NCBI RefSeq assembly: GCF_900312745.1
Contig: NZ_OMPD01000014.1
Span: 3,038,001-3,102,000, forward strand
DNA: 64,000 bases
Reading direction: 5' to 3'
DNA from: Aquimarina sp. AU58
GTDB taxonomy: Bacteria > Bacteroidota > Bacteroidia > Flavobacteriales > Flavobacteriaceae
The notes under the pieces are model-generated. The model saw only the letters and a program-made list of their open reading frames with translations, ran no database searches and was not told where the DNA came from. Shown one piece after another: positions 43,531 through 56,689 of the stretch (positions within the stretch are counted from its first letter, which is position 1; each line of letters begins with the position of its first letter). The position numbers were made by a program, and so were the translations under genes.

Positions 43531-43560
43531 AAAATCCCTACTATACAGTCGGGATTTTTT
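43531..43560 (+). terminator. Rho-independent terminator separating the OmpA gene from the PKS operon
   Basis: AAAATCCC pairs with GGGATTTT around a 12-base loop, followed by T residues. It lies 15 bases before the first gene of the biosynthetic operon, so that operon's promoter must overlap or lie just beyond this element. Confidence 0.8.
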
Positions 43561-43575
43561 TATGCTTAATTTTTA

Positions 43576-44721
43576 ATGTATCTTCAATACTTGGACACGT
43601 ATTCACACATAATAATCATTGGCGGAGGGCTTGCCGGACTAACCAATGCTATTCACTTAGCTAAGGCAGGTATTCCTGTTACACTTGTCGAAATGAACAC
43701 GTATCCAAAACACAAAGTATGTGGCGAATATATATCTAATGAAGTACTACCATATTTTGAATTTTTAGATATAGATATCAATGCTTTACAGCCTACCAGA
43801 ATTTCAAAATTTATTATAAGTACACAAAAAGGAAAATCTATACAAAGTACATTGCCTTTAGGAGGTTTTGGAGTTAGTAGATATGCTCTTGACTATTACC
43901 TATGGAAAAAAGCAGCGGCAGCAGGAGTACAGCTAATACAAGATCAGGTAACCGATGTACATTATCATAATAATCGTTTCCAAATTAAAACAGCAGGCGA
44001 TCGTATCCTAACCAGCGATTATGTTATTGGTGCATATGGAAAACGGACTCAACTTGATAAAACTTTAAAACGAGATTTTAGTTATAGAAAATCTCCCTGG
44101 TTGGCTGTTAAGGCTCACTACAAGGCAGATTTTGATTCAAATACAGTCTCGTTACATAATTTTGAAGGAGGATACTGTGGTCTTTCTATGGTAGAAAACA
44201 ACATCGTAAATGCGTGTTATTTGGCTACTTATGACAGTTTTAAAAAATATAAAGATCTAGATACCTTTCAAAAGGAGGTTCTGTGTAATAACCCACATTT
44301 ATGTACATTTTTTAAGAAGGCCGAATCATTATTTGATATTCCTATTACGATAAGTCAGATAAATTTTGATAAGAAAAACCCTGTTGAAGATCACGTTTTT
44401 ATGACCGGAGATGCTGCTGGTTTAATTCACCCCCTTTGTGGTAATGGTATGGCAATGGCAATACAAAGTGCTCAGATACTTAGCGAGCTACTAATACATA
44501 ATTATAATCAGGGTTTAATAACTCCCCGAAAAATAATAGAAATAGAATACACCAAACAATGGAATAAAGCATTCTCTAAAAGATTGTATACCGGTAGAGC
44601 ATTACAAAAAGTCTTATTAAATGGTAGATTACAACAGCTTTCTTACACAATAGCTAATACTATACCGGCTATTGTACCCAGAATTATAAAACAAACCCAT
44701 GGAGAGCCTTTGATATGTTAG
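43576..44721 (+). CDS. FAD-dependent oxidoreductase of the type III PKS operon
   Basis: This 381-residue flavoprotein has the dinucleotide motif GGGLAGL at residues 16-22, the ribose-binding Glu39, and the second FAD motif GDAAG (278-282) in MTGDAAGLIHPLCGNG. This is the aromatic-hydroxylase / geranylgeranyl-reductase-like group. In Streptomyces griseus the type III PKS gene srsA is accompanied by a methyltransferase (srsB) and a flavoprotein hydroxylase (srsC) that turn alkylresorcinols into methyl ethers and quinones. Here the same three functions are adjacent, so a ring hydroxylase role is inferred. It overlaps the methyltransferase gene by 7 bases. Confidence 0.88.
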   Translation: MYLQYLDTYSHIIIIGGGLAGLTNAIHLAKAGIPVTLVEMNTYPKHKVCGEYISNEVLPYFEFLDIDINALQPTRISKFIISTQKGKSIQSTLPLGGFGVSRYALDYYLWKKAAAAGVQLIQDQVTDVHYHNNRFQIKTAGDRILTSDYVIGAYGKRTQLDKTLKRDFSYRKSPWLAVKAHYKADFDSNTVSLHNFEGGYCGLSMVENNIVNACYLATYDSFKKYKDLDTFQKEVLCNNPHLCTFFKKAESLFDIPITISQINFDKKNPVEDHVFMTGDAAGLIHPLCGNGMAMAIQSAQILSELLIHNYNQGLITPRKIIEIEYTKQWNKAFSKRLYTGRALQKVLLNGRLQQLSYTIANTIPAIVPRIIKQTHGEPLIC

Positions 44722-45434
44722 CAAATTTACAATATAGAAGTAATGAGGTAGAACTCATGGATAATCCAGAGATTGAAGAAAAGGCTTTGCAAATAGCATT
44801 ATCCGATATTTCTAGGGTAAACAAATGGTTGGGAGGCAATGCAATTACTAGTAAGGCTGTACACACTTTGGTCAAAAATCTTAATCCTTCACAAGAGATT
44901 ACAATTCTTGATTTAGGTTGTGGTGATGGTGAGATGTTAAGGGCAATTGCAGATTCGTTTAGAAAAGAAAAAAGGAATATAAAATTTATAGGTATTGATC
45001 TGAATAATAAATGTTTAGATTACGCTACTAAAACAAGTACTTCATATCCTGAAATATCCTTTTTTAACAAAAACATTTTAGAAATAGAAGCTTCAGAATT
45101 TTCTTGTGACATCATTATTTGTACGTTAACATTACATCATCTTAGAGACGAGGAGATTAAAAAAATTATTAAAAAAGCTGTTAACCTGGCAAAAACTGCA
45201 GTGGTAATTAACGATCTTCATCGTAGTGCATTGGCATATTATCTTTTTAAAATATTTAGCTTCTTTTTTATTAAAGGGTATGTGGCAAAAAATGACGGAT
45301 TGGTTTCTATAAAAAGAGGATTCAAAAAACAAGAGTTGTTATATTTTGCCAAAGCACTTCATCTACAAGATTACAAAGTGGATTGGAAATGGGCCTTCCG
45401 GTATCGGTGGATTATAAAAACTGCAAGTAAATAA
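44715..45434 (+). CDS. Class I SAM-dependent methyltransferase
   Basis: This 239-residue enzyme has the SAM-binding motif ILDLGCGDGEML (residues 64-75), an acidic ribose-binding loop (FIGIDLNNKCL) and a TLTLHHL motif. A hydrophobic segment near residues 174-188 suggests membrane proximity. Sandwiched between the FAD oxidoreductase and the type III PKS, it most likely methylates the polyketide ring or its hydroxyl groups. Substrate assignment is by context only. Confidence 0.9.
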   Translation: MLANLQYRSNEVELMDNPEIEEKALQIALSDISRVNKWLGGNAITSKAVHTLVKNLNPSQEITILDLGCGDGEMLRAIADSFRKEKRNIKFIGIDLNNKCLDYATKTSTSYPEISFFNKNILEIEASEFSCDIIICTLTLHHLRDEEIKKIIKKAVNLAKTAVVINDLHRSALAYYLFKIFSFFFIKGYVAKNDGLVSIKRGFKKQELLYFAKALHLQDYKVDWKWAFRYRWIIKTASK

Positions 45435-45454
45435 AATTAAAAAAGTAAGAAAAA

Positions 45455-46507
45455 TTGAGTGTAAAAATAACTGCTGTAACCAAACAACTCCCACAATACA
45501 TGCGGGAGACAAAAGAAATATTACCCTTTGTTTCTGAATGGTTATCGGGCCAGAATGAACGTTTCAGACGTAAGGTGATTAAGATTTTTGAAAATGCAGC
45601 AGTAGATCGACGTTATGGGATCATGAGTATCGAAGAAGTATTTTTGGCAACTTCTTTTGAGGAGAAAAACGATATCTATATCAGAGAAATAAAGAAATTA
45701 GGGACTTCTGTTTTAAAAAAAGCCTTAGAAAAAGTCGATTGGGATCCTAAATCTCTTGATTACATCATTACTGTAAGTTGTACGGGCATTATGATTCCTT
45801 CTATTGATGCATTTATTATTAATGATCTTAATCTCAAACAAGATATTGTGAGGTTACCAGTTACAGAAATGGGATGTGCAGCAGGTGTTTCTGGGATTAT
45901 TTATGCAAGAAACTTTCTGCAAGCTAATCCGGGAAAGAGAGCTGCGGTAATTGCCATAGAATCACCTACAGCAACATTTCAGTTAGATGATTATAGCATG
46001 ACTAATATGGTAAGTGCTGCTATTTTTGGTGATGGAGCGGCGTGTACATTATTATCATCTGAAGAAGATGCTATAGGTCCAAAAATTATAGGAGACGAAA
46101 TGTATCATTTTTATGATGCAACAACAATGATGGGTTTTAAACTAACTAACGGAGGCTTACAAATGATATTAGACCCTAAAGTGCCGGAAACCATTGCCGC
46201 CCATTTCCCTAATGTTATCCATCCTTTCCTTGCAAAATATAACAAAACTATTGAAGAAGTAGATCATCTTATTTTTCATCCTGGTGGAAAAAAGATAGTA
46301 CAGACCGTAGAAGAGCTTTTTGGACATTTAGGAAAGAATATAGAGGATACAAAAGCTGTTCTGATGGAATACGGTAATATGAGTAGCGCCACTGTGTTGT
46401 ATGTGTTAGAACGATTCATAGAACAAAACCCGGCGCCAGGAGAAACAGGACTTATGCTTAGTTTTGGGCCAGGATTTTCTGCACAAAGAATATTGCTGGA
46501 ATGGTAA
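45455..46507 (+). CDS. Type III polyketide synthase (chalcone/stilbene synthase family), TTG start
   Basis: This 350-residue enzyme has the complete catalytic triad: Cys141 (EMGCAAG), His275 (FHPGGKK) and Asn308 (YGNMSSAT), plus the C-terminal FGPG loop. Type III PKSs extend an acyl-CoA or acyl-ACP starter with malonyl units and cyclise it to resorcinols, pyrones or phloroglucinols. The only start before the conserved N-terminus is TTG. It follows the methyltransferase gene by 20 bases. The dedicated fatty-acid enzymes downstream suggest a long-chain acyl starter. Confidence 0.95.
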   Translation: MSVKITAVTKQLPQYMRETKEILPFVSEWLSGQNERFRRKVIKIFENAAVDRRYGIMSIEEVFLATSFEEKNDIYIREIKKLGTSVLKKALEKVDWDPKSLDYIITVSCTGIMIPSIDAFIINDLNLKQDIVRLPVTEMGCAAGVSGIIYARNFLQANPGKRAAVIAIESPTATFQLDDYSMTNMVSAAIFGDGAACTLLSSEEDAIGPKIIGDEMYHFYDATTMMGFKLTNGGLQMILDPKVPETIAAHFPNVIHPFLAKYNKTIEEVDHLIFHPGGKKIVQTVEELFGHLGKNIEDTKAVLMEYGNMSSATVLYVLERFIEQNPAPGETGLMLSFGPGFSAQRILLEW

Positions 46508-46549
46508 AAAAGACTATTTTTCATTTCCGAGAAGTCGAAACTTTTTTAA

Positions 46550-47350
46550 ATGAAACGCGTGAATAAAGATTTTATAGATAAAAATGAATGGGCACTCATC
46601 TTGGGTGGCAGTAGTGGTTTGGGCTTAGCCTCTGCCAAAAAACTAGCTTTACATGGCATGAATATTATCATTGTGCATCGCAATCGTAAAAGTGAAATAA
46701 ATCATATTGAAGCTGATTTTGAAACAATAAGAGAAACAGGAGTTGGTTTTCTTTCATTTAATATAGATCTTTTGAAACCAGAAAAACGAATAGGGGTTAT
46801 TGCCGAAATAAAAGATGCCATAGATGAAGGGCGCATAAAAACAATTGTACATAGCGTTGCAAAAGGAAATCTAAAGCCTATGATTGATGCCGAACATGTA
46901 TTAAAGAATGATGATTTTCATTTAACTATTGATGCTATGGCAATTAGCCTTTATGATTGGGTTACATCGATTTTTAAAGCAACATTGTTTGCAGAGGATA
47001 CAAGAATTATTTCTTTTACCAGTGAAGGAAATACCAAATCCTGGAAAAATTATGCAGCTGTTTCTGCTGCCAAAGTAGCCCTCGAAGCCATTACCAGAAG
47101 TATAGCACTAGAATTTGCACCTTACGGTATTAAAGCCAATTGTCTGCAACCTGGAGCAGTAGATACTCAATCATTACGAATGATACCTGGTCATGAACAG
47201 ATTGTGAAGCATAGTATAAAGCGTAACCCGTTTAATCGAATTACAACACCAGAAGATGTAGCGAATGTAGTGTATCTGCTATGTAAAGAAGAAGCCTCCT
47301 GGATTAATGGTTGTGTGATACCTGTAAATGGAGGTGAACATTTAAACTAA
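46550..47350 (+). CDS. Enoyl-ACP-reductase-like SDR (Tyr-X6-Lys)
   Basis: This 266-residue SDR has the cofactor motif GGSSGLG near residue 19. Its catalytic pair is spaced as Tyr168-X6-Lys175 (YAAVSAAK), the spacing of FabI/FabL enoyl reductases rather than the YxxxK of ketoreductases. In the operon it would reduce the enoyl-ACP double bond made by the FabZ-like dehydratase. A dual or ketoreductase role is not excluded, because no separate ketoreductase is present. Confidence 0.82.
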   Translation: MKRVNKDFIDKNEWALILGGSSGLGLASAKKLALHGMNIIIVHRNRKSEINHIEADFETIRETGVGFLSFNIDLLKPEKRIGVIAEIKDAIDEGRIKTIVHSVAKGNLKPMIDAEHVLKNDDFHLTIDAMAISLYDWVTSIFKATLFAEDTRIISFTSEGNTKSWKNYAAVSAAKVALEAITRSIALEFAPYGIKANCLQPGAVDTQSLRMIPGHEQIVKHSIKRNPFNRITTPEDVANVVYLLCKEEASWINGCVIPVNGGEHLN

Positions 47351-47364
47351 TTATAGAAATAGAT

Positions 47365-47847
47365 ATGAAAAACATGTTAATTCTGTGTCTCCCAATTATG
47401 CTTTACATTCTGTCTTGTAAAGAAGATAGTAATAATACAGGAGATGTAGTTACCGATGCAGATGATAATAAAGCAGAGATTATCAGTGTCGAAGTAACAG
47501 GAGAAGAGGGTAAGTACTCTTTTAATGTTGGTATTAAGAGTCCGGACAAAGGCTGTAATCAATATGCAGATTGGTGGGAAGTTATTTCTGAAGATGGAGA
47601 ATTGTTTTATAGAAGAATTTTAGGTCATAGCCATGTGAGTGAGCAACCTTTTGTACGATCAGGCGGGCCAGTTCCTATTAAAAAAGATCAAATAGTGTAT
47701 GTGCGTGCACATATGAACACAAGTAAATATGGTGATAAAGTATTTAAAGGTAGTGTAGCTGTAGGGTTTACAGAAAGTACTTTGGAGAGCGAATTTGCAG
47801 ATAATTTAGGAACAAAACAACCGCTTCCGGATGGATGCGCATTTTAA
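47365..47847 (+). CDS. Lipoprotein of unknown function inside the PKS operon
   Basis: I do not recognise this 160-residue protein. It has a lipoprotein signal (LCLPIMLYILSC) and an Asp/Asn-rich linker. A compact domain follows with CNQYADWWEVISEDGELFYR, a HSHVSEQPF histidine motif and a C-terminal Cys (GCAF), so a disulfide is possible. Its last 17 bases overlap the start of the dehydratase gene, so it is an integral member of the operon. An export or surface role for the product is a guess. Confidence 0.8.
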   Translation: MKNMLILCLPIMLYILSCKEDSNNTGDVVTDADDNKAEIISVEVTGEEGKYSFNVGIKSPDKGCNQYADWWEVISEDGELFYRRILGHSHVSEQPFVRSGGPVPIKKDQIVYVRAHMNTSKYGDKVFKGSVAVGFTESTLESEFADNLGTKQPLPDGCAF

Positions 47848-48298
47848 AACTCATTTAATTTTGGATATAGAAGATATTATACAAGAACTACCCTACAGCA
47901 AACCCTTTTTGTTTGTAGATGAAATTCTGGAGATTGATGATCATCATATAAAAGGGAGTTATACATTTCTAAAGGATGAATATTTTTATGAGGGACATTT
48001 TAAAGACAATCCCATTACTCCTGGAGTAATACTTACCGAATGTATGGCTCAAATCGGGATGGCGTGTTTTGGGATTTATCTTTTGAAAGGAGAATGGAGT
48101 AAAACCAATTTTGGAGTAGCAATGACCAGTAGTGATGTTAATTTTTACCACCCTGTTTATCCTGAAGAGAAAGTGACTGTAATTGCTACTAAAGAATATT
48201 TTAGATTTAATAAGTTAAAATGTAAGGTTGTCATGTATAATTCTGAGGACGTGTTGGTTGCTAAAGGAATTGTAGCAGGGGTAGCTTTTAAAAAATAA
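47831..48298 (+). CDS. FabZ-like 3-hydroxyacyl-ACP dehydratase
   Basis: This 155-residue hot-dog-fold protein opens with ELPYSKPFLFVDEILE and carries the catalytic pair His56 (YEGHFKDNP) and Glu70 (LTECMAQ), the same 14-residue spacing as E. coli FabZ. It would dehydrate 3-hydroxyacyl chains on the operon's acyl carrier protein. It overlaps the upstream lipoprotein gene by 17 bases and ends 3 bases before the hydrolase gene. Confidence 0.9.
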   Translation: MDAHFKTHLILDIEDIIQELPYSKPFLFVDEILEIDDHHIKGSYTFLKDEYFYEGHFKDNPITPGVILTECMAQIGMACFGIYLLKGEWSKTNFGVAMTSSDVNFYHPVYPEEKVTVIATKEYFRFNKLKCKVVMYNSEDVLVAKGIVAGVAFKK

Positions 48299-48301
48299 AA
48301 G

Positions 48302-49204
48302 ATGAGTAGTATAGGATATTCGTTAGTAAAATTAGTACTTAGACTGAAAGGAGAAAAGAAATCCTGGTCTCAAGATCCTATTGAATACCATAAAAAAAGA
48401 AAACAAGATATACACACCCCTAATACAAAGCTTTTATTAGGTAGTACCTTTGAAACTAAAGAGGTATACAATAGTAAAGTAACCAGTATTGTCCCTAAAA
48501 ATACCAATACAGATTTTTTGTTATTGTATTGTCACGGAGGAGCCTTTGTTTATGGTCCTACCCGAGAAAACTGGTTAGCAATCACTAAGATCGCAAAACA
48601 AGCACGTTCTCATGCCTGGATGGTAGATTACCCAAAAGCACCAGAAAACACTATTAAAACAATAACAGAAAGCATATATCAAGTGTATCTCGAAGCGATA
48701 AAAACATACGATCCATCCAAAATCATTCTAATCGGTGATTCTGTAGGCGGGAATTTGATAATGACTCTTACGCAACGATTGCTAAAAGAAGAATCTAAAT
48801 TACCAAATAGGTTAATAGCGATTACACCAATGATGGACGCCAGCTTAACAAACCCAAAAATTAAGGAAATTGATTTGATAGATCCTATTCTTAGTGTGAA
48901 AGGAGTGAAATCTGCAAAGAAGATGTGTGCAGGTCAATTATCGTTAAAAGATCAGATGATTTCCCCAGTATACGGTGATTTTAACGATTTCCCACCAATG
49001 CACCTATTTACTGCTACAAATGACATCTGTACGCCTGATCAAGAGGTGCTAATAGATAAAATAAAAGAGGCACAAGGTAAAATAGAAGTTATTAAAGGAA
49101 AAGGAATGCCACATATATGGCCAATACTACCTATACTATCTGAAGCTAAAATTGCTATAAAGGAAATAGTATCGATTATTAACTCAGCTATGAATGATAA
49201 ATAG
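48302..49204 (+). CDS. Alpha/beta hydrolase, hormone-sensitive-lipase type
   Basis: This 300-residue hydrolase has the oxyanion motif HGGAF (residues 78-82) and the nucleophile elbow GDSVGG with Ser147. Plausible acid/base residues are Asp241 (ATNDICT) and His271 (MPHIWP). In this setting it could release or trim the acyl product or hydrolyse misprimed thioesters. Its final codons overlap the ketosynthase start by 11 bases. Confidence 0.88.
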   Translation: MSSIGYSLVKLVLRLKGEKKSWSQDPIEYHKKRKQDIHTPNTKLLLGSTFETKEVYNSKVTSIVPKNTNTDFLLLYCHGGAFVYGPTRENWLAITKIAKQARSHAWMVDYPKAPENTIKTITESIYQVYLEAIKTYDPSKIILIGDSVGGNLIMTLTQRLLKEESKLPNRLIAITPMMDASLTNPKIKEIDLIDPILSVKGVKSAKKMCAGQLSLKDQMISPVYGDFNDFPPMHLFTATNDICTPDQEVLIDKIKEAQGKIEVIKGKGMPHIWPILPILSEAKIAIKEIVSIINSAMNDK

Positions 49205-50471
49205 AAGGCGTGTAGTTATAACAGGTTTAGGTGTAGTCGCTCCAAATGGAACGAACGTTTCAATGTTTAAAAAACATGTTCGTGATGGAGTAAGTGGTAT
49301 ACAATATATAGAAGAATTAAATCATCTTAATTTCTCTTGTCAACTAGCTGGTTTACCATTATATAAAGAAGATTATTTAAATAATTACTTTAACTCTATT
49401 CAATTGCGTGGATTGAATGCTTCTGGTATGGAATATGGAGTTATTGCAGGTATGGATGCTTGGAAAGATTCCAAGTTGCCTATCAATGATTCTGAAACAC
49501 CACTTTGGGATGCTGGTGTTATTTTTGGAACCGGAATATTAGGTGTCGATAAATTTAGAGAAGCAATTTATAAAGTAGACGAAGGCAAAGTAAGACGGTT
49601 GGGTAGTACCACAGTTACGCAAACTATGGCCAGTGGTATTAGTGCTTTTTTAGGCGGTATATTAGGATGCGGAAATGTGGTTACTACTAATTCTTCGGCT
49701 TGCAGTACAGGTACCGAAGCTATTTTGATGGCTTATGACCGGATAAGTGATGGTAAAGCAGAAATCATTCTGGCGGGTAGTACAAATGATAGTGGTCCCT
49801 ATGTGTGGGGAGGCTTTGATGCTATGCGTATTCTCCCATATAAGTATAATGATAATCCTACTAGTGCTTCGCGACCTATGAGTGCCACAGCTAGTGGTTT
49901 TGTACCTGGGAGTGGAGCAGGGGCTTTGGTTATCGAAAGCCTGGATAGTGCCCAAAAAAGAGGAGCTACAATCTATGCAGAGATTTTGGGCGGACATGTA
50001 AATAGCGGTGGGCAACGTAAAGGGGGAAGTATGACAGCTCCTAATAGTGAAGCGGTACAGCATTGTATTCGTAAAGCGGTAGCGGATGCAGGAATAGATC
50101 CGGGAAAAATCGATGCAATCAATGGTCATCTAACCGCTACAACGATGGATAGTGTCGAAATACAAAATTGGTGCATCGCCTTAGAACGAAAAGGACAGGA
50201 TTTTCCGTATATCAATTCACTTAAGAGTATGGTAGGGCATTGCCTGGCAGCTTCTGGTAGTATAGAAAGCGTAGCTACTGTATTGCAATTAAAAGAGGAC
50301 TTCATCTTTGGAAATACAAATTGTGAAGATTTACATCCCGAAATAGAAAATTGGGTATCCAGGGATCGAATCCCTACCAAAACATTGGATTATGCTCCCA
50401 ATATTATCGCAAAAGCTAGTTTTGGATTTGGAGATGTAAATGCTTGCGTTATCTTTAAAAAATACACATAA
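49194..50471 (+). CDS. FabF-like beta-ketoacyl-ACP synthase
   Basis: This 425-residue condensing enzyme has the full active site: Cys170 (SSACSTG), His312 (INGHLTAT), Lys344 (SLKSMVG) and His349 (GHCLAAS). The spacing matches FabF (KASII). The segment after the first His reads GHLTAT instead of the usual HGTST order, so it is a divergent member. It should elongate acyl chains on the ACP encoded next, 45 bases downstream. Confidence 0.92.
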   Translation: MINRRRVVITGLGVVAPNGTNVSMFKKHVRDGVSGIQYIEELNHLNFSCQLAGLPLYKEDYLNNYFNSIQLRGLNASGMEYGVIAGMDAWKDSKLPINDSETPLWDAGVIFGTGILGVDKFREAIYKVDEGKVRRLGSTTVTQTMASGISAFLGGILGCGNVVTTNSSACSTGTEAILMAYDRISDGKAEIILAGSTNDSGPYVWGGFDAMRILPYKYNDNPTSASRPMSATASGFVPGSGAGALVIESLDSAQKRGATIYAEILGGHVNSGGQRKGGSMTAPNSEAVQHCIRKAVADAGIDPGKIDAINGHLTATTMDSVEIQNWCIALERKGQDFPYINSLKSMVGHCLAASGSIESVATVLQLKEDFIFGNTNCEDLHPEIENWVSRDRIPTKTLDYAPNIIAKASFGFGDVNACVIFKKYT

Positions 50472-50516
50472 AAGAATAGTATCAAAAATAAATATTGAAT
50501 CAACTCTAATTAAATT

Positions 50517-50771
50517 ATGACAAAAGAAGAATTACTTTCTAAATTAAAAACAATCATAACGCCGTATGTGCAAAATGAAGAAGGGCTTAATACCCTTACC
50601 GAAAACACTGATTTTATAAAAGATCTGGAAATTAATTCTGCAAATCTGGTAGATGTAGTACTTGATGTTGAAGATGAATTCGATATTGAGATTGATAATG
50701 AATCGATGGAGAAGATGTTAACTATTAAAGCTTCAATAGCCGTTATAGAAGATAAATTAGCGTCCAAATGA
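50517..50771 (+). CDS. Acyl carrier protein
   Basis: This 84-residue acidic four-helix protein has its probable phosphopantetheine site at Ser41 in LEINSANLVD; the common DSL motif is replaced by NSA. Helix II is typical (VDVVLDVEDEFDIEIDNE). It is the scaffold for the dedicated KS/DH/ER set and overlaps the phosphopantetheinyl transferase gene by 4 bases (ATGA type), consistent with activation by that enzyme. Confidence 0.92.
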   Translation: MTKEELLSKLKTIITPYVQNEEGLNTLTENTDFIKDLEINSANLVDVVLDVEDEFDIEIDNESMEKMLTIKASIAVIEDKLASK

Positions 50772-51310
50772 TTGGTAATGATATTGTAGATCTTCAATTG
50801 GCCAAAGCCCAGAGTAACTGGCAGAGAAGAGGGTGGCTTCAAAAAATATTTACCATACAGGAACAACAGTATATTTTTGCTTCAGAAAAAATAGAATTGC
50901 AGCTCTGGCAGTTTTGGAGTATGAAAGAGGCGGCATATAAAGCTCACCAGAGGCGATTTAATCTTTCTCGCAGGTATAACCCCAAAAATTTTGAATGCAC
51001 ACCAAATAGAGAGGTCTATGTTGGTAATTACAGTTATAAAACACATACAGAGACGCAAAAGGAATATGTGTATAGCATTGCAGTGGTATCTGATGTAGAT
51101 TATCACTCTTCAGTATATGATAAAGCAATGAATACACGTTCTAAGTTAAAAGAAACAATTTCTGAAAAACTAAATATAGATTCGTCTCTCATTTATTTTA
51201 CTAAAAATAGTAGAGGAATTCCCTTAGTACATATTGATCAAAAAACAATACAATTACCGCTGTCACTAACACATCACGGAAAATACTCGGCATTTGTCGT
51301 TTCAATTTAA
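50768..51310 (+). CDS. 4'-phosphopantetheinyl transferase
   Basis: This 180-residue enzyme has the AcpS/Sfp superfamily motifs GNDIVDL (residues 3-9) and WSMKEAAYKA (50-59), which bind Mg2+ and CoA. It converts apo-ACP to holo-ACP. Its size and position directly after the ACP gene suggest it serves the operon's own carrier protein. It is the last gene of the ten-gene unit and converges on the DUF4132-locus genes. Confidence 0.92.
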   Translation: MIGNDIVDLQLAKAQSNWQRRGWLQKIFTIQEQQYIFASEKIELQLWQFWSMKEAAYKAHQRRFNLSRRYNPKNFECTPNREVYVGNYSYKTHTETQKEYVYSIAVVSDVDYHSSVYDKAMNTRSKLKETISEKLNIDSSLIYFTKNSRGIPLVHIDQKTIQLPLSLTHHGKYSAFVVSI

Positions 51311-51396: not shown

Positions 51397-51945
51397 TTAC
51401 TGATAAAATTTACCCCTATCGCACCATTTATCCCGTTCTTTTTTATCAAAAAAGAGGGTTAATTGCGGGAATCCTAATATTGGATCGGTGTCTTCATCAA
51501 TAATTTTGACAGCAGCCATACTTACATCTTTTTCATTCCTGAAATGCAGTTCTACATCATGAGGGTAATCTGTATTCGATTTTGGGTTTCCAAATGTACA
51601 TTTACTTTTATAAATAAACTTCCAGTTTAAAAAAACCGATGTTATTTCCTCTCCAAGATAGGACTGCCAGTGAGGGGATGCATCATATATCTTTCTAAAG
51701 TATTTCTTTTCTCTTTCCCAATACCTGATTCTCTTAATATATACCCCTTGTAAAAACCCAAGTTTTAATTCATCTGCGGTATAGATATGAAATACCTCAC
51801 CATCGGTACACTGTATAAAAATTCCTTCCTGTATCGCATGATACGTTGTATTGATACTAAACACACCTTTGTACCACACTTTCTCAATAGTGGTATGTTT
51901 CAAAGCCAAAAAAGCAATTTCGAGATCTGTTTTAACCTTACTCAT
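51397..51945 (-). CDS. Hypothetical protein coupled to the WGR-DUF4132 gene
   Basis: I recognise no family in this 182-residue soluble protein. It is rich in aromatic residues (KYFRKIYDASPHWQSYLGEE) and acidic/basic pairs, and ends in a DKKERDKWCDRG motif. There is no signal peptide or membrane span. It overlaps the 3' end of the large WGR-LRR-DUF4132 gene by 8 bases, so it is translated as its partner. A regulator, adaptor or immunity role would be inference only. Confidence 0.75.
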   Translation of the reverse strand: MSKVKTDLEIAFLALKHTTIEKVWYKGVFSINTTYHAIQEGIFIQCTDGEVFHIYTADELKLGFLQGVYIKRIRYWEREKKYFRKIYDASPHWQSYLGEEITSVFLNWKFIYKSKCTFGNPKSNTDYPHDVELHFRNEKDVSMAAVKIIDEDTDPILGFPQLTLFFDKKERDKWCDRGKFYQ

Positions 51946-54900
51946 CAGGTTCCATTATAAATCTGATATCTGCCAAAGCTTCAGAATATACAATTGGTGG
52001 TACATCTTTAAAAGGTATTAATCTTTTATCTGTTGCCGATGTAGGGTTGTCATAAACATAACTCCCGGTTTGCACAGCATCTTTAACTACAAAATAAAAT
52101 GCTCCTGAATCCATATTCTCTTGATAACTTTCTCTAACCGGAAGATTATTGGTATCTATAAAAGCATCGATGTTATCTGCAGAAAATGTTTTCTTATACG
52201 AAGTTACACCACCACCGTCTGTCACAGATCCTCTTTTCCAGCCTTTTTTCATCGCTCGGTATCTAAAAATACTTACTTGTTGGTGTTTTTCAGTGAATAT
52301 TTTGGATAGGGTTGTTTCTTTATGCTCTTCTGTGAGTTTTTCAATAGTTCTTTCTAATTGTTTAAAAGTTGATGTAATATTTTTAGTACTAAAATACGCT
52401 AACCAACTTTTGGTAAGATCTACACCTAAAGGTAAAGGATGCGCTAGCATTATTTTATCGGTATCTTTTAGTAAAATGGTGTTAGAACATACATCTACAA
52501 AAGAACCATCTTCGAGAACAATGAAGCTTTCTTGGGTATCATTCTTAACCCACACAGCACTTTGAGAAAAGGCAAAAGCAACGGGATTCTCCATAAAAAA
52601 CGCTTTCCAGTCGGCTGCGGGCCAATGTCGTTGTGTAACCAAATGCATCTCCATCGACTGTGCAAATTGTTTTGCTACATCATTAAGTATTTTTGTGTTT
52701 TCTTTTATAACTTTCTTAAAATCAGCAGAAGCTTTAGGTACTGTTCGTATAATTTTTCCTGTATCATTTCTAAATTTAAATTGAAGATTTACATCAATGA
52801 GCATAGTGTACGTTGCTCTGCCTTCATGTATCTGTAGTTCACGACCAGGAAAATCAAAATCAGGAATCATACGCTCTTGCAATTCAAGGAAGGTTAGATC
52901 CAAATGATCAGCAATAGTTATAAGAGCTTCCTCTGCCGTTGCAGCAACGCTATATCTATCACGGTATTTTTTCATGATTTTATCTAGTACCAGTGCTGCA
53001 TCATATGAACTCATAAGGCCAAGTAATTGGCAAGCCGCATCGCTTCGCTTTTTTAATCCTTCTTCTTCCAAAGCCTTAAGTATATCGGCTCCTCCAAAAA
53101 GTCCTATTGCAGCAAAAGCTGGTTTGTTTTTGGCAACCAACCCTTTGTTTTTTTGCACTTTATGCCATACTACAGTAGCAAACTCCTGGGATTTCTTTTT
53201 ATCTACAAGTAAATACAATGGTGAGGCTTCAATATCTGGTTCTACAGTATTGCTGCATTTTTGTTTATAAAAGATATAGTCGATCTCTTTTTTTGTAAAC
53301 TTAGAACCATCAGCCCAATAAAGAGCAGGAAGTTTATTTGCCCAGCTAAATACTGGTTTTTTGAGTTTGCCTAAAGCTTCAATTTCTTTAATTCTATTCT
53401 TCATTTCTAGAATAGTAACAGTACTGGAATTTTGCTCTTTATAAACAAGTTCTATAACAATCTCCCGTATGGTATCATTTTTCTCGGTTTTGAGTAATTC
53501 TGAAAAAACGGTACGTAATGCAATATTTTCTTGTTTATCTTCTAAAAATAGTAAAGCCTTAACCGCTATTAGTCTATCTGCATCTTTTTTAGATTTTAGC
53601 AATTGTAAAGCTTCATTTATGATTATAGTATCCTGATATAGTCGAGATAGCTCAAGACAAGCCATTTTTGAGATACTTTCATTTTTAGCCTTTACTAATT
53701 CCCAAACCTTTTGGTGATACTTAGTATAGTCTATTTTATCAATTATCTTAAAAAGATATCTAAAATGTTCTTCAGAACGTGAACTATCCGGATTTATGTT
53801 TAGGGCTTCTCCAACAATATCTACAGCTTCCTGACCAAAATGTTGTATTGCTATTCTCGTGATGTTAAGGTCAATCACTTTTACGCTTTTAACATACTCA
53901 AAAACAGTATCCTTAAGCTCTAATACGAATAGTTCTAATGCCCAATCAATAAATTCTGGTGTGCAATCAAAATACCGACGACCTAATGACCATGAAAATT
54001 TAAAACTTGCATCATTTTTCTTTTCTGCAGAGATGATTTTTAGGGTTTCCTGTACCTTTATAAATGTTTCTGCCTGATATTTTTCTTTGGCATGGTAGAT
54101 CAATATTCGATAGCACTCCATAATGCATTCATGACAATCTGTTTGCTGTAATAAATCATGAATATAACCTTCATATGATTCGAAATCAAAATCACATAAT
54201 GTTTCCAGTAAATAGAAAGGGATATGACGTTGCGCACCACCAGAACCTTTATATTCCCCAATGAATAGAAGTTTAGAGAGGTGAATATCTAGTAATTCCC
54301 TGTTATTTTTTAGCATGAAAGTAATAAACGGAGTTCGTATACGATAGGTAATTACCTGATCAAAAACAGAATTAGCATCCTCTTCTAATCTCGCCAAAAG
54401 GTATCTACCAACAGAGTTTGGGGTTTCATTAGAGAGACTAAACGAGGTTTCTGAAGACATTTCTGATAAAAAAGCAGAAAAGCATGTTTGCTCATTAATC
54501 CCTACAGTTGCTAAACGTTCTAGTATTATACTAAACAAATCCTGATCCGGTTCTTCTTTCTCTAACTGAGGAATGAACCATTTAGAGAAAAAATCTTCAT
54601 GGTAGCCTCTATATGAAGGGCCATCAATAAAACGGTTTTGTTTCTCAAAATAAAAGGCGTCCTGGCAAATGAAACAAAGGATTCTATAATCAATAAAATT
54701 CCAATCGGTAATAGGAGCAAGAAGGGTAATAATAGGTTCATGATCATTATAATTGATTCTCTTTGCTTCTGGTAATTCATCAGATTCACCTAGTATAAAT
54801 TTTTGTAATACCTCTACATTAGCCTGTTCACTTTCATAAACATCATCCTTTATCTCATCAAAAACTTCGGTTATTTTATCTAATCTTTCTGAAACTAGTT

Positions 54901-55990
54901 CGGATTTATTAGCTGGGACTTCTGGGATATTGATTATTTTTTCTTCTTTCTCTTCTTTGGATAAAAATTCTCTAATCCCTGAAATATCTATAAAAAAACT
55001 ACTCCCAATAATATCCTTTGGAATATTCTTAATATTATCTATCTCTATTTCAAAATCTTCTAATTCGGTAAGATTGACAAATTCCTTTGGGATTGCAGTT
55101 ATTTTTTTACAGTAATCCAATTCTAATGTTTCTAAAGCGTCTAACTCACAAATGCTGAGCGGAAAATGATCAAAGTGGTTTACATTAAGTTTTAATTCTG
55201 TAAGATTTTTAAGCTTTCCGATTTCTGCAGGCAAAGCGGTTAAACAATTTCCTGACAGGTCGAGTGATTCTAAAGCTGTTAAATCTCCGATTTCTTTCGA
55301 AATTATTGGTGCTTGAGGAAGCGGAGCTCCATAGGTTTCTGTTCTGTTACTCTTAAAAACTAACAATTTTAGTTGCGATAATTTACCGATCGATACGGGT
55401 AATCCTTCAATATTAGGAAGGCTATCTAACTTTAATATAGTTAATTTAGACAGTTGATCTATTTTAGATATACTAGAATAATTAGCACTTCTTATAGATA
55501 GTTCCTCTAAATTTTTGAGTTCCATAATAGTATCAGGAATCTTGACTTTTTGAAAATAATCACCTTCTATGTCAAGTATCCTCAAATTTGTTAAGTTTCC
55601 TATTTCTTTAGGAATATTATCTTCAAATCCACTTATTCGTAATTCTTCTAATCCTGTACATTTACAAATTAGCGGAAGCAATCTGGGATCCTTTTTTTTA
55701 AACACATTTTCGGTTAAATCCAGAGTTTTACTTTTTTCGTGTAATGCCTGTTGGACTTTAAACAAAGTATCGGGTTCTACACCAGGAATATGAAGTGTAA
55801 GTTCGGTATATCCTCCTTTTATTTTTGATTGTACAGCTTTTTCAGCTTCTTTTTTGCATTTTTCTTCAGACTCAAAATCTTTCTTATTTGTGCGTAGTGT
55901 ATTTCCAATACCACCATAAGCTACTTTATAAGATGTACCACTGGTTTCTATTTTCCAGATTTTGGTATCATTAACCAATTGTTTTTTCAT
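51938..55990 (-). CDS. WGR - leucine-rich repeat - HEAT - DUF4132 protein
   Basis: This 1350-residue cytoplasmic protein has several domains. Residues 1-75 form a WGR domain (KIWKIETSGTSYKVAYGGIG), a nucleic-acid-binding module known from PARPs and MolR-like proteins. Residues ~90-330 are leucine-rich repeats (LTALESLDLSGNCLTALPAE). A long helical HEAT-like region spans ~400-1000. Near ~1045-1240 is a DUF4132 domain (RHWPAADWKAFFMENPVAFAF). E. coli MolR/YehI are known relatives of DUF4132. Function is unestablished; the layout suggests a sensor-scaffold. It is first in a two-gene operon. Confidence 0.85.
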   Translation of the reverse strand: MKKQLVNDTKIWKIETSGTSYKVAYGGIGNTLRTNKKDFESEEKCKKEAEKAVQSKIKGGYTELTLHIPGVEPDTLFKVQQALHEKSKTLDLTENVFKKKDPRLLPLICKCTGLEELRISGFEDNIPKEIGNLTNLRILDIEGDYFQKVKIPDTIMELKNLEELSIRSANYSSISKIDQLSKLTILKLDSLPNIEGLPVSIGKLSQLKLLVFKSNRTETYGAPLPQAPIISKEIGDLTALESLDLSGNCLTALPAEIGKLKNLTELKLNVNHFDHFPLSICELDALETLELDYCKKITAIPKEFVNLTELEDFEIEIDNIKNIPKDIIGSSFFIDISGIREFLSKEEKEEKIINIPEVPANKSELVSERLDKITEVFDEIKDDVYESEQANVEVLQKFILGESDELPEAKRINYNDHEPIITLLAPITDWNFIDYRILCFICQDAFYFEKQNRFIDGPSYRGYHEDFFSKWFIPQLEKEEPDQDLFSIILERLATVGINEQTCFSAFLSEMSSETSFSLSNETPNSVGRYLLARLEEDANSVFDQVITYRIRTPFITFMLKNNRELLDIHLSKLLFIGEYKGSGGAQRHIPFYLLETLCDFDFESYEGYIHDLLQQTDCHECIMECYRILIYHAKEKYQAETFIKVQETLKIISAEKKNDASFKFSWSLGRRYFDCTPEFIDWALELFVLELKDTVFEYVKSVKVIDLNITRIAIQHFGQEAVDIVGEALNINPDSSRSEEHFRYLFKIIDKIDYTKYHQKVWELVKAKNESISKMACLELSRLYQDTIIINEALQLLKSKKDADRLIAVKALLFLEDKQENIALRTVFSELLKTEKNDTIREIVIELVYKEQNSSTVTILEMKNRIKEIEALGKLKKPVFSWANKLPALYWADGSKFTKKEIDYIFYKQKCSNTVEPDIEASPLYLLVDKKKSQEFATVVWHKVQKNKGLVAKNKPAFAAIGLFGGADILKALEEEGLKKRSDAACQLLGLMSSYDAALVLDKIMKKYRDRYSVAATAEEALITIADHLDLTFLELQERMIPDFDFPGRELQIHEGRATYTMLIDVNLQFKFRNDTGKIIRTVPKASADFKKVIKENTKILNDVAKQFAQSMEMHLVTQRHWPAADWKAFFMENPVAFAFSQSAVWVKNDTQESFIVLEDGSFVDVCSNTILLKDTDKIMLAHPLPLGVDLTKSWLAYFSTKNITSTFKQLERTIEKLTEEHKETTLSKIFTEKHQQVSIFRYRAMKKGWKRGSVTDGGGVTSYKKTFSADNIDAFIDTNNLPVRESYQENMDSGAFYFVVKDAVQTGSYVYDNPTSATDKRLIPFKDVPPIVYSEALADIRFIMEPDE

Positions 55991-56101: not shown

Positions 56102-56689
56102 CTATCTAAGTATCGGAAAATAAAAACGAATATCTAATTTGTTTTGCTCTCGTTTGTCGTGAATATTAACATCAAAATCACTAGAGTGAATCGTAGTTTT
56201 GCCTAATAATTTTTTGTCATCAAGAGAGAACGTGATAATCACTTCTTTTTGTATTCCCTTAATAGTAAGGTTGCCAATAACTTTATAAGTATTGGTGTCA
56301 AAAGCAACTACATCGGTACTCACAAATCTTATTTTTGGGTATTTTTTTCTATAGAAGAATTTTTCCCACATTAAATGCCCGTCACGCAAAAAATTATCGG
56401 TATCTAGTGTATTAATAAGTGCAGTACCTTTAAAACTTGCGTTCTCCGGGTCTTTAGGGTTGAAATTAATCTTAAAGTCTAAACCTGCAATAGTACCAGA
56501 AGTTTTATCTTTTATAAAATCAAAAGAAACTCTTGACTTTTCTTTATCGAAAACGATGCCTTGATAGTCATTGATTAAGGCATAATCAGAAGTCGGGCTG
56601 GTTGGTAATTGTGTAGCGTTAGGAATAATATCTTGCCCAAATCCTTGAGCATACAAAATACCAATCAATATGTAGAGAAAAGTTCTCAT
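56102..56689 (-). CDS. YceI-like periplasmic protein
   Basis: This 195-residue protein has a signal peptide (RTFLYILIGILYAQGFG) and a YceI-like lipocalin fold: SRVSFDFIKDKTSGTIAGLD, a central FLRDGHLMWEKFF, then VIGNLTIKGIQKEVIITF. YceI-type proteins bind polyisoprenoid or amphiphilic ligands. It lies 111 bases upstream of the WGR-DUF4132 gene on the same strand, and divergent from the protease gene. Confidence 0.85.
   Translation of the reverse strand: MRTFLYILIGILYAQGFGQDIIPNATQLPTSPTSDYALINDYQGIVFDKEKSRVSFDFIKDKTSGTIAGLDFKINFNPKDPENASFKGTALINTLDTDNFLRDGHLMWEKFFYRKKYPKIRFVSTDVVAFDTNTYKVIGNLTIKGIQKEVIITFSLDDKKLLGKTTIHSSDFDVNIHDKREQNKLDIRFYFPILR

Follow-up and report, generated by a model that had tools for sequence, protein, structure and literature searches.

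Long alkylresorcinols that are subsequently methylated are made by the type III polyketide synthases (PKSs) of the hierridin operon hidABC and of operons in Planctomycetota, in which three enzyme types, a methyltransferase (MT), a flavin adenine dinucleotide (FAD)-dependent oxidoreductase and the PKS, are encoded together (PMC10896814, PMC8086630); when expressed, the planctomycete PKSs, those of three-gene operon types included, made pentadecyl- and heptadecylresorcinols (PMC10896814). In Azotobacter vinelandii, a dedicated fatty-acid system hands its chains directly to the type III PKSs ArsB and ArsC (PMC6274091), and in Bacteroidota resorcinol lipids are known from the dar/flexirubin systems, where the ring is made by DarB, an enzyme related to ketosynthase III (KSIII), and not by a type III PKS. 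Here we describe a ten-gene operon around a type III PKS (genes g1 to g10, Table 1), at positions 43576-51310 of a 64,000-nucleotide stretch of the Aquimarina sp. AU58 genome (contig NZ_OMPD01000014.1, positions 3,038,001 to 3,102,000; hereafter the window), which shares traits with each of these systems. The triad has precedents in cyanobacteria and planctomycetes. Type III PKS clusters are themselves already catalogued in Aquimarina: they occur in nine of nine genomes of one study (PMC9323603), three strains or species of which are among our loci with the present cluster (L034, L053, L061; L and G numbers are our handles for loci and genomes), and another study lists them without a product or a MIBiG match (PMC9860996). 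A 'T3pks-arylpolyene' cluster is recorded in Aequorivita (PMC6139392), and type III PKSs make up 9% of the clusters that a study of 66 genomes predicted for Flavobacteriaceae (PMC7440613). In the openly licensed literature we found no product for any Bacteroidota type III PKS cluster, nor any account of the triad coupled to a type II-like module or of such a module being reused beside dar genes. The original prediction knew of no characterised product for this exact gene set; the class of cluster, however, had been seen before.

We propose, with a probability of roughly 60%, that the operon encodes a pathway for a resorcinol-type lipid, in which a dedicated acyl-acyl carrier protein (acyl-ACP) module feeds the PKS and the resorcinol is then hydroxylated and methylated. 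The cluster ACP, with its own 4'-phosphopantetheinyl transferase (PPTase) in some species, would carry an acyl chain that the dedicated ketosynthase (KS), dehydratase (DH) and enoyl reductase (ER) lengthen, the ketoreductase (KR) and malonyl transferase steps being borrowed from primary fatty-acid synthesis. As had been predicted, neither of the latter two enzymes is found among the ten genes by Pfam or NCBIfam, and the same searches recognise no KSIII and no acyl-CoA or acyl-AMP ligase. Because a KSIII and an acyl-activating ligase are lacking, the KS would most likely be primed by primary fatty-acid synthesis, and the acyl-ACP, once complete, would pass its chain straight to the PKS, in the manner of ArsA with ArsB and ArsC. 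The PKS would add about three malonyl units and aldol ring closure of the tetraketide would give a 5-alkylresorcinol, which the flavoprotein would hydroxylate on the ring and the MT would methylate, yielding a methoxylated alkylphenol or an alkylquinone. The observations behind this proposal are the gene content, the intact active sites, the conservation and co-occurrence of the genes, and the presence of the module in other contexts. The MT, oxidoreductase and PKS form a triad of the hidABC type, likened here by enzyme type and not by Hid sequences, which occurs in 100/100 family regions and 70/70 named loci (defined below). For this triad, hidABC and the planctomycete operon (PMC10896814) are closer parallels than the Streptomyces srsABC genes to which the locus had been compared, and the accompanying parallel with Azotobacter ars is retained. 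Unlike the Aquimarina operon, the hidABC and planctomycete operons, in the available parts of their descriptions, contain no KS, DH, ER, ACP or PPTase and have another gene order, whereas ars relies on a multidomain type I fatty-acid synthase (FAS), ArsA, in place of discrete, type II-like proteins, single-domain by Pfam, without KR and malonyl transferase.

The comparison of gene neighbourhoods suggested in the original prediction separates a conserved core from accessory genes. Among 299 Flavobacteriaceae genomes (E<=1e-20 for the PKS, E<=1e-80 for the KS), 104 encode the PKS, 101 the KS and 101 both (hypergeometric probability 3e-77, a figure that ignores shared descent), so that no genome has the KS without the PKS. 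The three genomes with the PKS alone are G072, whose PKS is only 28% identical, G293, in which the contig stops inside the KS, and G138, in which other genes fill about 9 kb after the reductase, with a fragment of a dehydratase at the edge of the contig. At least four genera contain one species with both genes and another with neither, which indicates that PKS and KS are gained or lost together. We then counted genes in 100 family regions round the PKS, i.e. those of the 104 genomes minus the host (G000), G072, G150 (split PKS) and G066 (tiny contig), and in 70 named loci, which remain from the 80 best PKS matches, leaning to close relatives, after exclusion of ten with short flanks (Table 1). 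Genes were called by profiles from the named loci at score thresholds of our own choice, so diverged PPTases or ACPs may go uncounted. In G150 the PKS is broken across two frames (G150:C1:841123-842162), possibly by a frameshift or an assembly error. The conserved unit is FAD-MT-PKS-(ER)-DH-KS-ACP: of the ten genes predicted to belong together, seven are widely conserved, the PPTase is found in fewer than a third of the family regions, and the lipoprotein (g5) and hydrolase (g7) are Aquimarina extras. The counts of one and zero for these two reflect a sample of 100 regions in which G177 alone shares the genus of the window, and all 17 named loci with g7 are labelled Aquimarina. KS and ACP are absent from L205 and L223 (contig ends), L235 (G138), L237 (G190) and L257 (G144), and the DH from the last four and L260, while L205 retains it; three of these genomes have a DH-KS-ACP block that is not linked to the PKS: in G190 at a distance of 355 kb, in G144 on a different contig, and in G276 (L223), together with a PPTase, at another place.

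The active sites are intact and kept in relatives, with the residues numbered as predicted. In sets made up of the window and the loci above thresholds that we set, the Cys-His-Asn triad of the PKS is kept in 183/183 sequences (180 distinct, three being duplicates), residues C170/H312/K344/H349 of the KS in 174/174 (171 distinct), and the residues given in Table 1 for the DH, ER and ACP in at least 97% of 176, 143 and 172 sequences, respectively; L269 and L270 fall outside the PKS set by score, and both have Cys-His-Asn. With PF00195 and PF02797 above their gathering scores and this triad, g3 is a type III PKS; it is the sole PF00195 match in the host genome, and its nearest named records are from Aquimarina (PKS up to 97% identical). 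The reductase g4 looks like an ER rather than a KR because of its Tyr-X6-Lys motif and its top NCBIfam match, FabL (155 bits, cut-off 328). The KS g8 scores 277.6 bits with the NCBIfam FabF model, under the cut-off of 493.75, and its Cys-His-His and Lys residues are all present.

The KS and DH are extra copies, since the 6.19 Mb host genome has other KSs and a probable primary dehydratase, the 469-aa protein on which the strongest host FabA/FabZ domain lies. The host also encodes a FabF-like KS, fifteen KS domains in giant open reading frames (ORFs) and a locus that its similarity to L290/L291 marks as dar-like; compared with four further full-length KSs of the host, g8 is at most 31.3% identical. 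Scores with the cluster KS model are at least 534 bits for module KSs and 60-145 bits for those of the host dar locus (L301). At two sites the cluster KSs differ from the host FabF-like KS, with GHLT[AS]T in place of THGTST and GFGDVN in place of GFGGHN (the relative in L293 has GHLTGT and AFGDTN), and in a tree they separate from the few other KSs included with a support of 0.82. The giant ORFs (G000:C2:544184-620346) possibly encode a trans-acyltransferase PKS, for which the cuniculene cluster reported for Aquimarina is a candidate parallel (PMC9860996).

Of 395 phylum genomes, 38 contain this KS and all 38 a PKS match, against 173 with a PKS match overall; five of these genomes have the KS in one place and a PKS of distant type in another. 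A class-wide search, outside the family, found the KS in 32/395 genomes, and 19 KS places were read there, in addition to eight others. Thirteen of the 19 (L302-L308, L313-L318), in families labelled f3, f10, f56, f59 and f80, have an adjoining PKS 51-72% identical to g3; the other six are L309 (short contig), L310 and L311 (one genus), L312, L319 and L320. The idea of a dedicated acyl-ACP supply joined to a PKS and to oxidising and methylating enzymes thus passes its principal test, the core genes being conserved together here and in other families of the class.

The histories of the triad and the module differ. We read 17 PKSs of the distant type, with identities of about 27-35% (16 from a pool of 140 genomes plus that of G072), along with three near ones. 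Five of the distant PKSs (L276-L280) lie in a PKS-MT-FAD triad whose FAD enzyme is 36-42% identical to g1, MT 31-33% to g2 and PKS 28-30% to g3; in contrast to the Aquimarina operon, their PKS falls elsewhere in the tree and has W at the F228 site discussed below, and no fatty-acid genes were recognised within about 15 kb. Of the remaining twelve, eleven have neither an MT nor a FAD match, and L288 has one that is MT-like, its match to FAD being trivial. In a 41-sequence PKS tree, the 24 FAS-linked members and the lone L270 group at a support of 1.0 (0.44 without L270), deeper nodes being weak; the F228 site is F in 23 and Y in one of the FAS-linked PKSs, W in the five triads, and W in 11 and Y in one of the twelve others. 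The tailoring pair therefore accompanies PKSs from two separate regions of the tree, only one of which has the acyl module.

The module also occurs without a PKS. In G675 and G394, which belong to two families, an ER-DH-KS-ACP-PPTase module is divergent from dar genes, with DarB matches of 614.7 and 634.8 bits (cut-off 550), DarG at 197.8 bits (cut-off 170; L291) and DarH at 443.1 bits (cut-off 300; L290); the label DarA in these loci follows position and similarity, with no model match. The same module thus stands beside another resorcinol-forming enzyme, darB, which strengthens its reading as an acyl supply. In L292 and L294, DH-KS-ACP is flanked by a GNAT-like gene and a family 2 glycosyltransferase, and in L293 both lie on the same side of ER-DH-KS-ACP; a Pfam match to the GNAT-like gene, a weak one, was obtained in L292 only. 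Judged by eye from the beginnings of the sequences, the modules of L319 and L320 adjoin dioxygenase-like, glycosyltransferase and asparagine-synthase-like genes, and their neighbours look glycan-related. An alternative is a pathway in which acyl-ACP is not the starter of the PKS but is attached to the finished phenol as an ester, or to another acceptor, the genes being linked by joint use in one final molecule. Modules beside GNAT-like and glycosyltransferase genes (L292-L294) or beside dar genes, given that flexirubins are dialkylresorcinol esters (PMC3992019), and the extra hydrolase of Aquimarina are compatible with it; the conserved core, however, contains no acyltransferase, and we regard such late attachment as quite improbable.

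Several points weigh against the resorcinol pathway, and the first two concern g3. Its best single-sequence solved relative is Pks11 (E 3.8e-50), labelled an alpha-pyrone synthase, and the same starter supply could serve a PKS that lactonises, with the flavoprotein and MT acting on an alkylpyrone. The residue that we take to correspond to ArsB W281, from our own alignment through chalcone synthase G256, is F in 183/183 PKSs (F228 in g3). W281 goes with resorcinol formation and ArsC G284 with pyrone formation (PMC6274091), and F228 is a weak pointer to resorcinol; it is weakened by Pks11, which has W at the aligned site, so that an aromatic residue there does not discriminate between the two products. 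ArsB and ArsC, moreover, are switched by single-residue changes (PMC6274091). On the other hand, a flavoprotein resembling ring hydroxylases makes more sense with a phenol as its substrate, and the planctomycete enzymes with the same kinds of partner genes yield resorcinols (PMC10896814), which leaves a pyrone product unlikely in our view.

The second point is that the NCBIfam model closest to g3 is DpgA (NF042429), with 171.6 bits against a cut-off of 425; on this score, an identification of g3 as 3,5-dihydroxyphenylacetyl-CoA synthase was rejected. DpgA is not known to use a fatty chain, and its partners dpgB/C/D are crotonases; the operon contains no crotonase-type Pfam match of that kind. 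A DpgA-like enzyme could nevertheless make a small aromatic acid which, after loading onto the ACP, the KS and DH would lengthen into an aryl-alkyl product or, without the ER, an aryl polyene. Consistent with this, none of 11 ER-lacking genomes has an ER ortholog elsewhere at E<=1e-30, a search in which all four ER-carrying genomes run alongside matched, and the antiSMASH label of the related Aequorivita locus names an aryl polyene (PMC6139392). Yet the DpgA cut-off is far off, the operon has no aryl loading enzyme, KR or second KS, and the ER is kept in most family regions; making the ring first is rather unlikely.

The remaining points concern the other enzymes and the module. No operon gene reaches an NCBIfam curated cut-off among the matches listed (for g1 the best 25 of 118, for g4 the best 25 of 219), and the best model for g1 is a reductase family, geranylgeranyl reductase (106.5 bits, cut-off 158.8). 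The predicted structure of g1 (predicted local distance difference test score, pLDDT, 90.5) is closest to 3NIX, flavin halogenases, 3-hydroxybenzoate 6-hydroxylase, a geranylgeranyl-reductase-like protein, UbiI and PHBH; the model is thus nearest to aromatic hydroxylases and halogenases, with the reductase-like protein also near. Flavin halogenases typically carry a WxWxIP motif, which is absent from g1, and assignment to that class was rejected despite the shared fold. On co-expression, no role was found for the planctomycete FAD enzyme, and the methyltransferase seemed to methylate carbon (PMC10896814); for g2, O- and C-methylation cannot be told apart. Since the planctomycete PKSs made alkylresorcinols in a host without the module, the latter is not needed for alkylresorcinols as such, and since modules adjoin GNAT-like, family 2 glycosyltransferase and other genes, it need not serve a ring-forming enzyme. 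The dar-linked modules number only two, both divergently transcribed, and five relatives (L308, L313-L316) have no recognised ACP next to the KS. Finally, the step order, the chain, the ring closure, the tailoring and the product are what we infer, and sequence alone does not reveal a product.

As to layout, the ten ORFs lie on one strand with several overlaps and agree with the predicted gene list, nine of them reaching the Pfam gathering score; successive gaps from g1 to g10 are -7, 20, 42, 14, -17, 3, -11, 45 and -4 bases. A perfect 8-bp inverted repeat with a 12-base loop and a T-run (43531-43561), found by eye and confirmed in a check, follows the upstream OmpA-like gene and ends 14 bases before the listed ATG of g1, for which reason translation of g1 may instead begin with TTG at 43591. 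Scans for promoters gave fewer sites than expected both for sigma-70-like motifs (26 vs 34.6) and for TAnnTTTG (92 vs 97.9), and we therefore claim no promoter. For g5, a model with a pLDDT of 78.5 gave no match in a fold search at E<=0.001.

Table 1. Genes of the operon and its recurrent neighbour, with their occurrence in family regions and named loci
Gene	Proposed product	Position	Strand	Matches and residues	Family regions (of 100)	Named loci (of 70)
g1	FAD-dependent oxidoreductase (proposed ring hydroxylase)	43576..44721	+	PF01494 (FAD_binding_3) 57 bits	100	70
g2	S-adenosylmethionine-dependent methyltransferase	44715..45434	+	PF13649 (Methyltransf_25) 58 bits; PRK06202 145.9 bits, cut-off 243	100	70
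g3	Type III PKS, TTG start	45455..46507	+	PF00195/PF02797 (Chal_sti_synt N, C); C141/H275/N308, F228		
g4	FabL-like enoyl-ACP reductase	46550..47350	+	PF13561 (adh_short_C2) 145 bits; Y168-X6-K175	91	41
g5	Lipoprotein, accessory, predicted mostly beta	47365..47847	+	No Pfam match	1	25
g6	FabZ-like hot-dog dehydratase	47831..48298	+	PF07977 (FabA-like) 52 bits; H56/E70	95	70
g7	Alpha/beta hydrolase, hormone-sensitive lipase type, accessory	48302..49204	+	PF07859 (Abhydrolase_3) 130 bits	0	17
g8	Dedicated FabF-like KS	49194..50471	+	PF00109/PF02801 (ketoacyl-synt N, C); own motifs GHLTAT and GFGDVN	95	70
g9	Acyl carrier protein	50517..50771	+	PF00550 (PP-binding) 22.1 bits, cut-off 20.8; S41	95	70
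g10	4'-Phosphopantetheinyl transferase	50768..51310	+	PF01648 (ACPS) 47 bits	30	65
YceI	YceI-type lipid-binding protein, recurrent operon neighbour	56102..56689	-	PF04264 85 bits; PDB matches named polyisoprenoid-binding protein	33	43

Among the neighbouring genes, the YceI-type gene recurs, lying downstream on the opposite strand in 24 of its family regions and upstream on the same strand in nine; about 1.1 per 100 regions would be expected from the host's five matches, an estimate whose score criteria differ from those of the observed count, the regions being related. This linkage fits a lipid that crosses the envelope, but it may be inherited synteny. The PKS operon of Saltatorellus ferox also includes lipoprotein and lipid/isoprenoid-binding genes (PMC10896814), and a gene of the MMPL family directly after one related cluster (L307:9150-11429, + strand) suggests product export. 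In the window, a 182-aa protein without a Pfam match and a 1350-aa WGR/leucine-rich-repeat/DUF4132 protein (51397-55990, - strand) lie between the operon and YceI, a gene that in many other loci of Aquimarina sits nearer to the operon. In Psychroserpens and Winogradskyella loci (L069, L072, L086, L090 and others), the upstream arrangement differs from that of Aquimarina: a 150-aa gene (c14, GreA-like by eye), often with YceI, precedes the FAD gene on the same strand.

More tentatively, and with the odds in our judgement against the whole of it, the module (DH-KS-ACP, often with ER and PPTase, its KS marked by GHLT[AS]T/GFGDVN) may be a portable source of acyl-ACP plugged into unrelated systems, namely type III PKS with FAD and MT, dar/flexirubin, and GNAT/glycosyltransferase genes. 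In about one third of the sampled Flavobacteriaceae it would then feed the PKS to give an undescribed phenolic or quinone lipid, moved across the envelope by YceI-type carriers and possibly serving as a membrane antioxidant or an auxiliary electron carrier. Were the proposed pathway correct, it would be a discrete-enzyme counterpart of the FAS-type III PKS hybrid of Azotobacter, and the pairing of one acyl module with two resorcinol-forming enzymes of unrelated chemistry would represent a natural case of modular reuse that could be exploited to engineer phenolic lipids. It would also mean that a large part of a family widespread in marine and soil habitats makes a lipid that is still uncharacterised.

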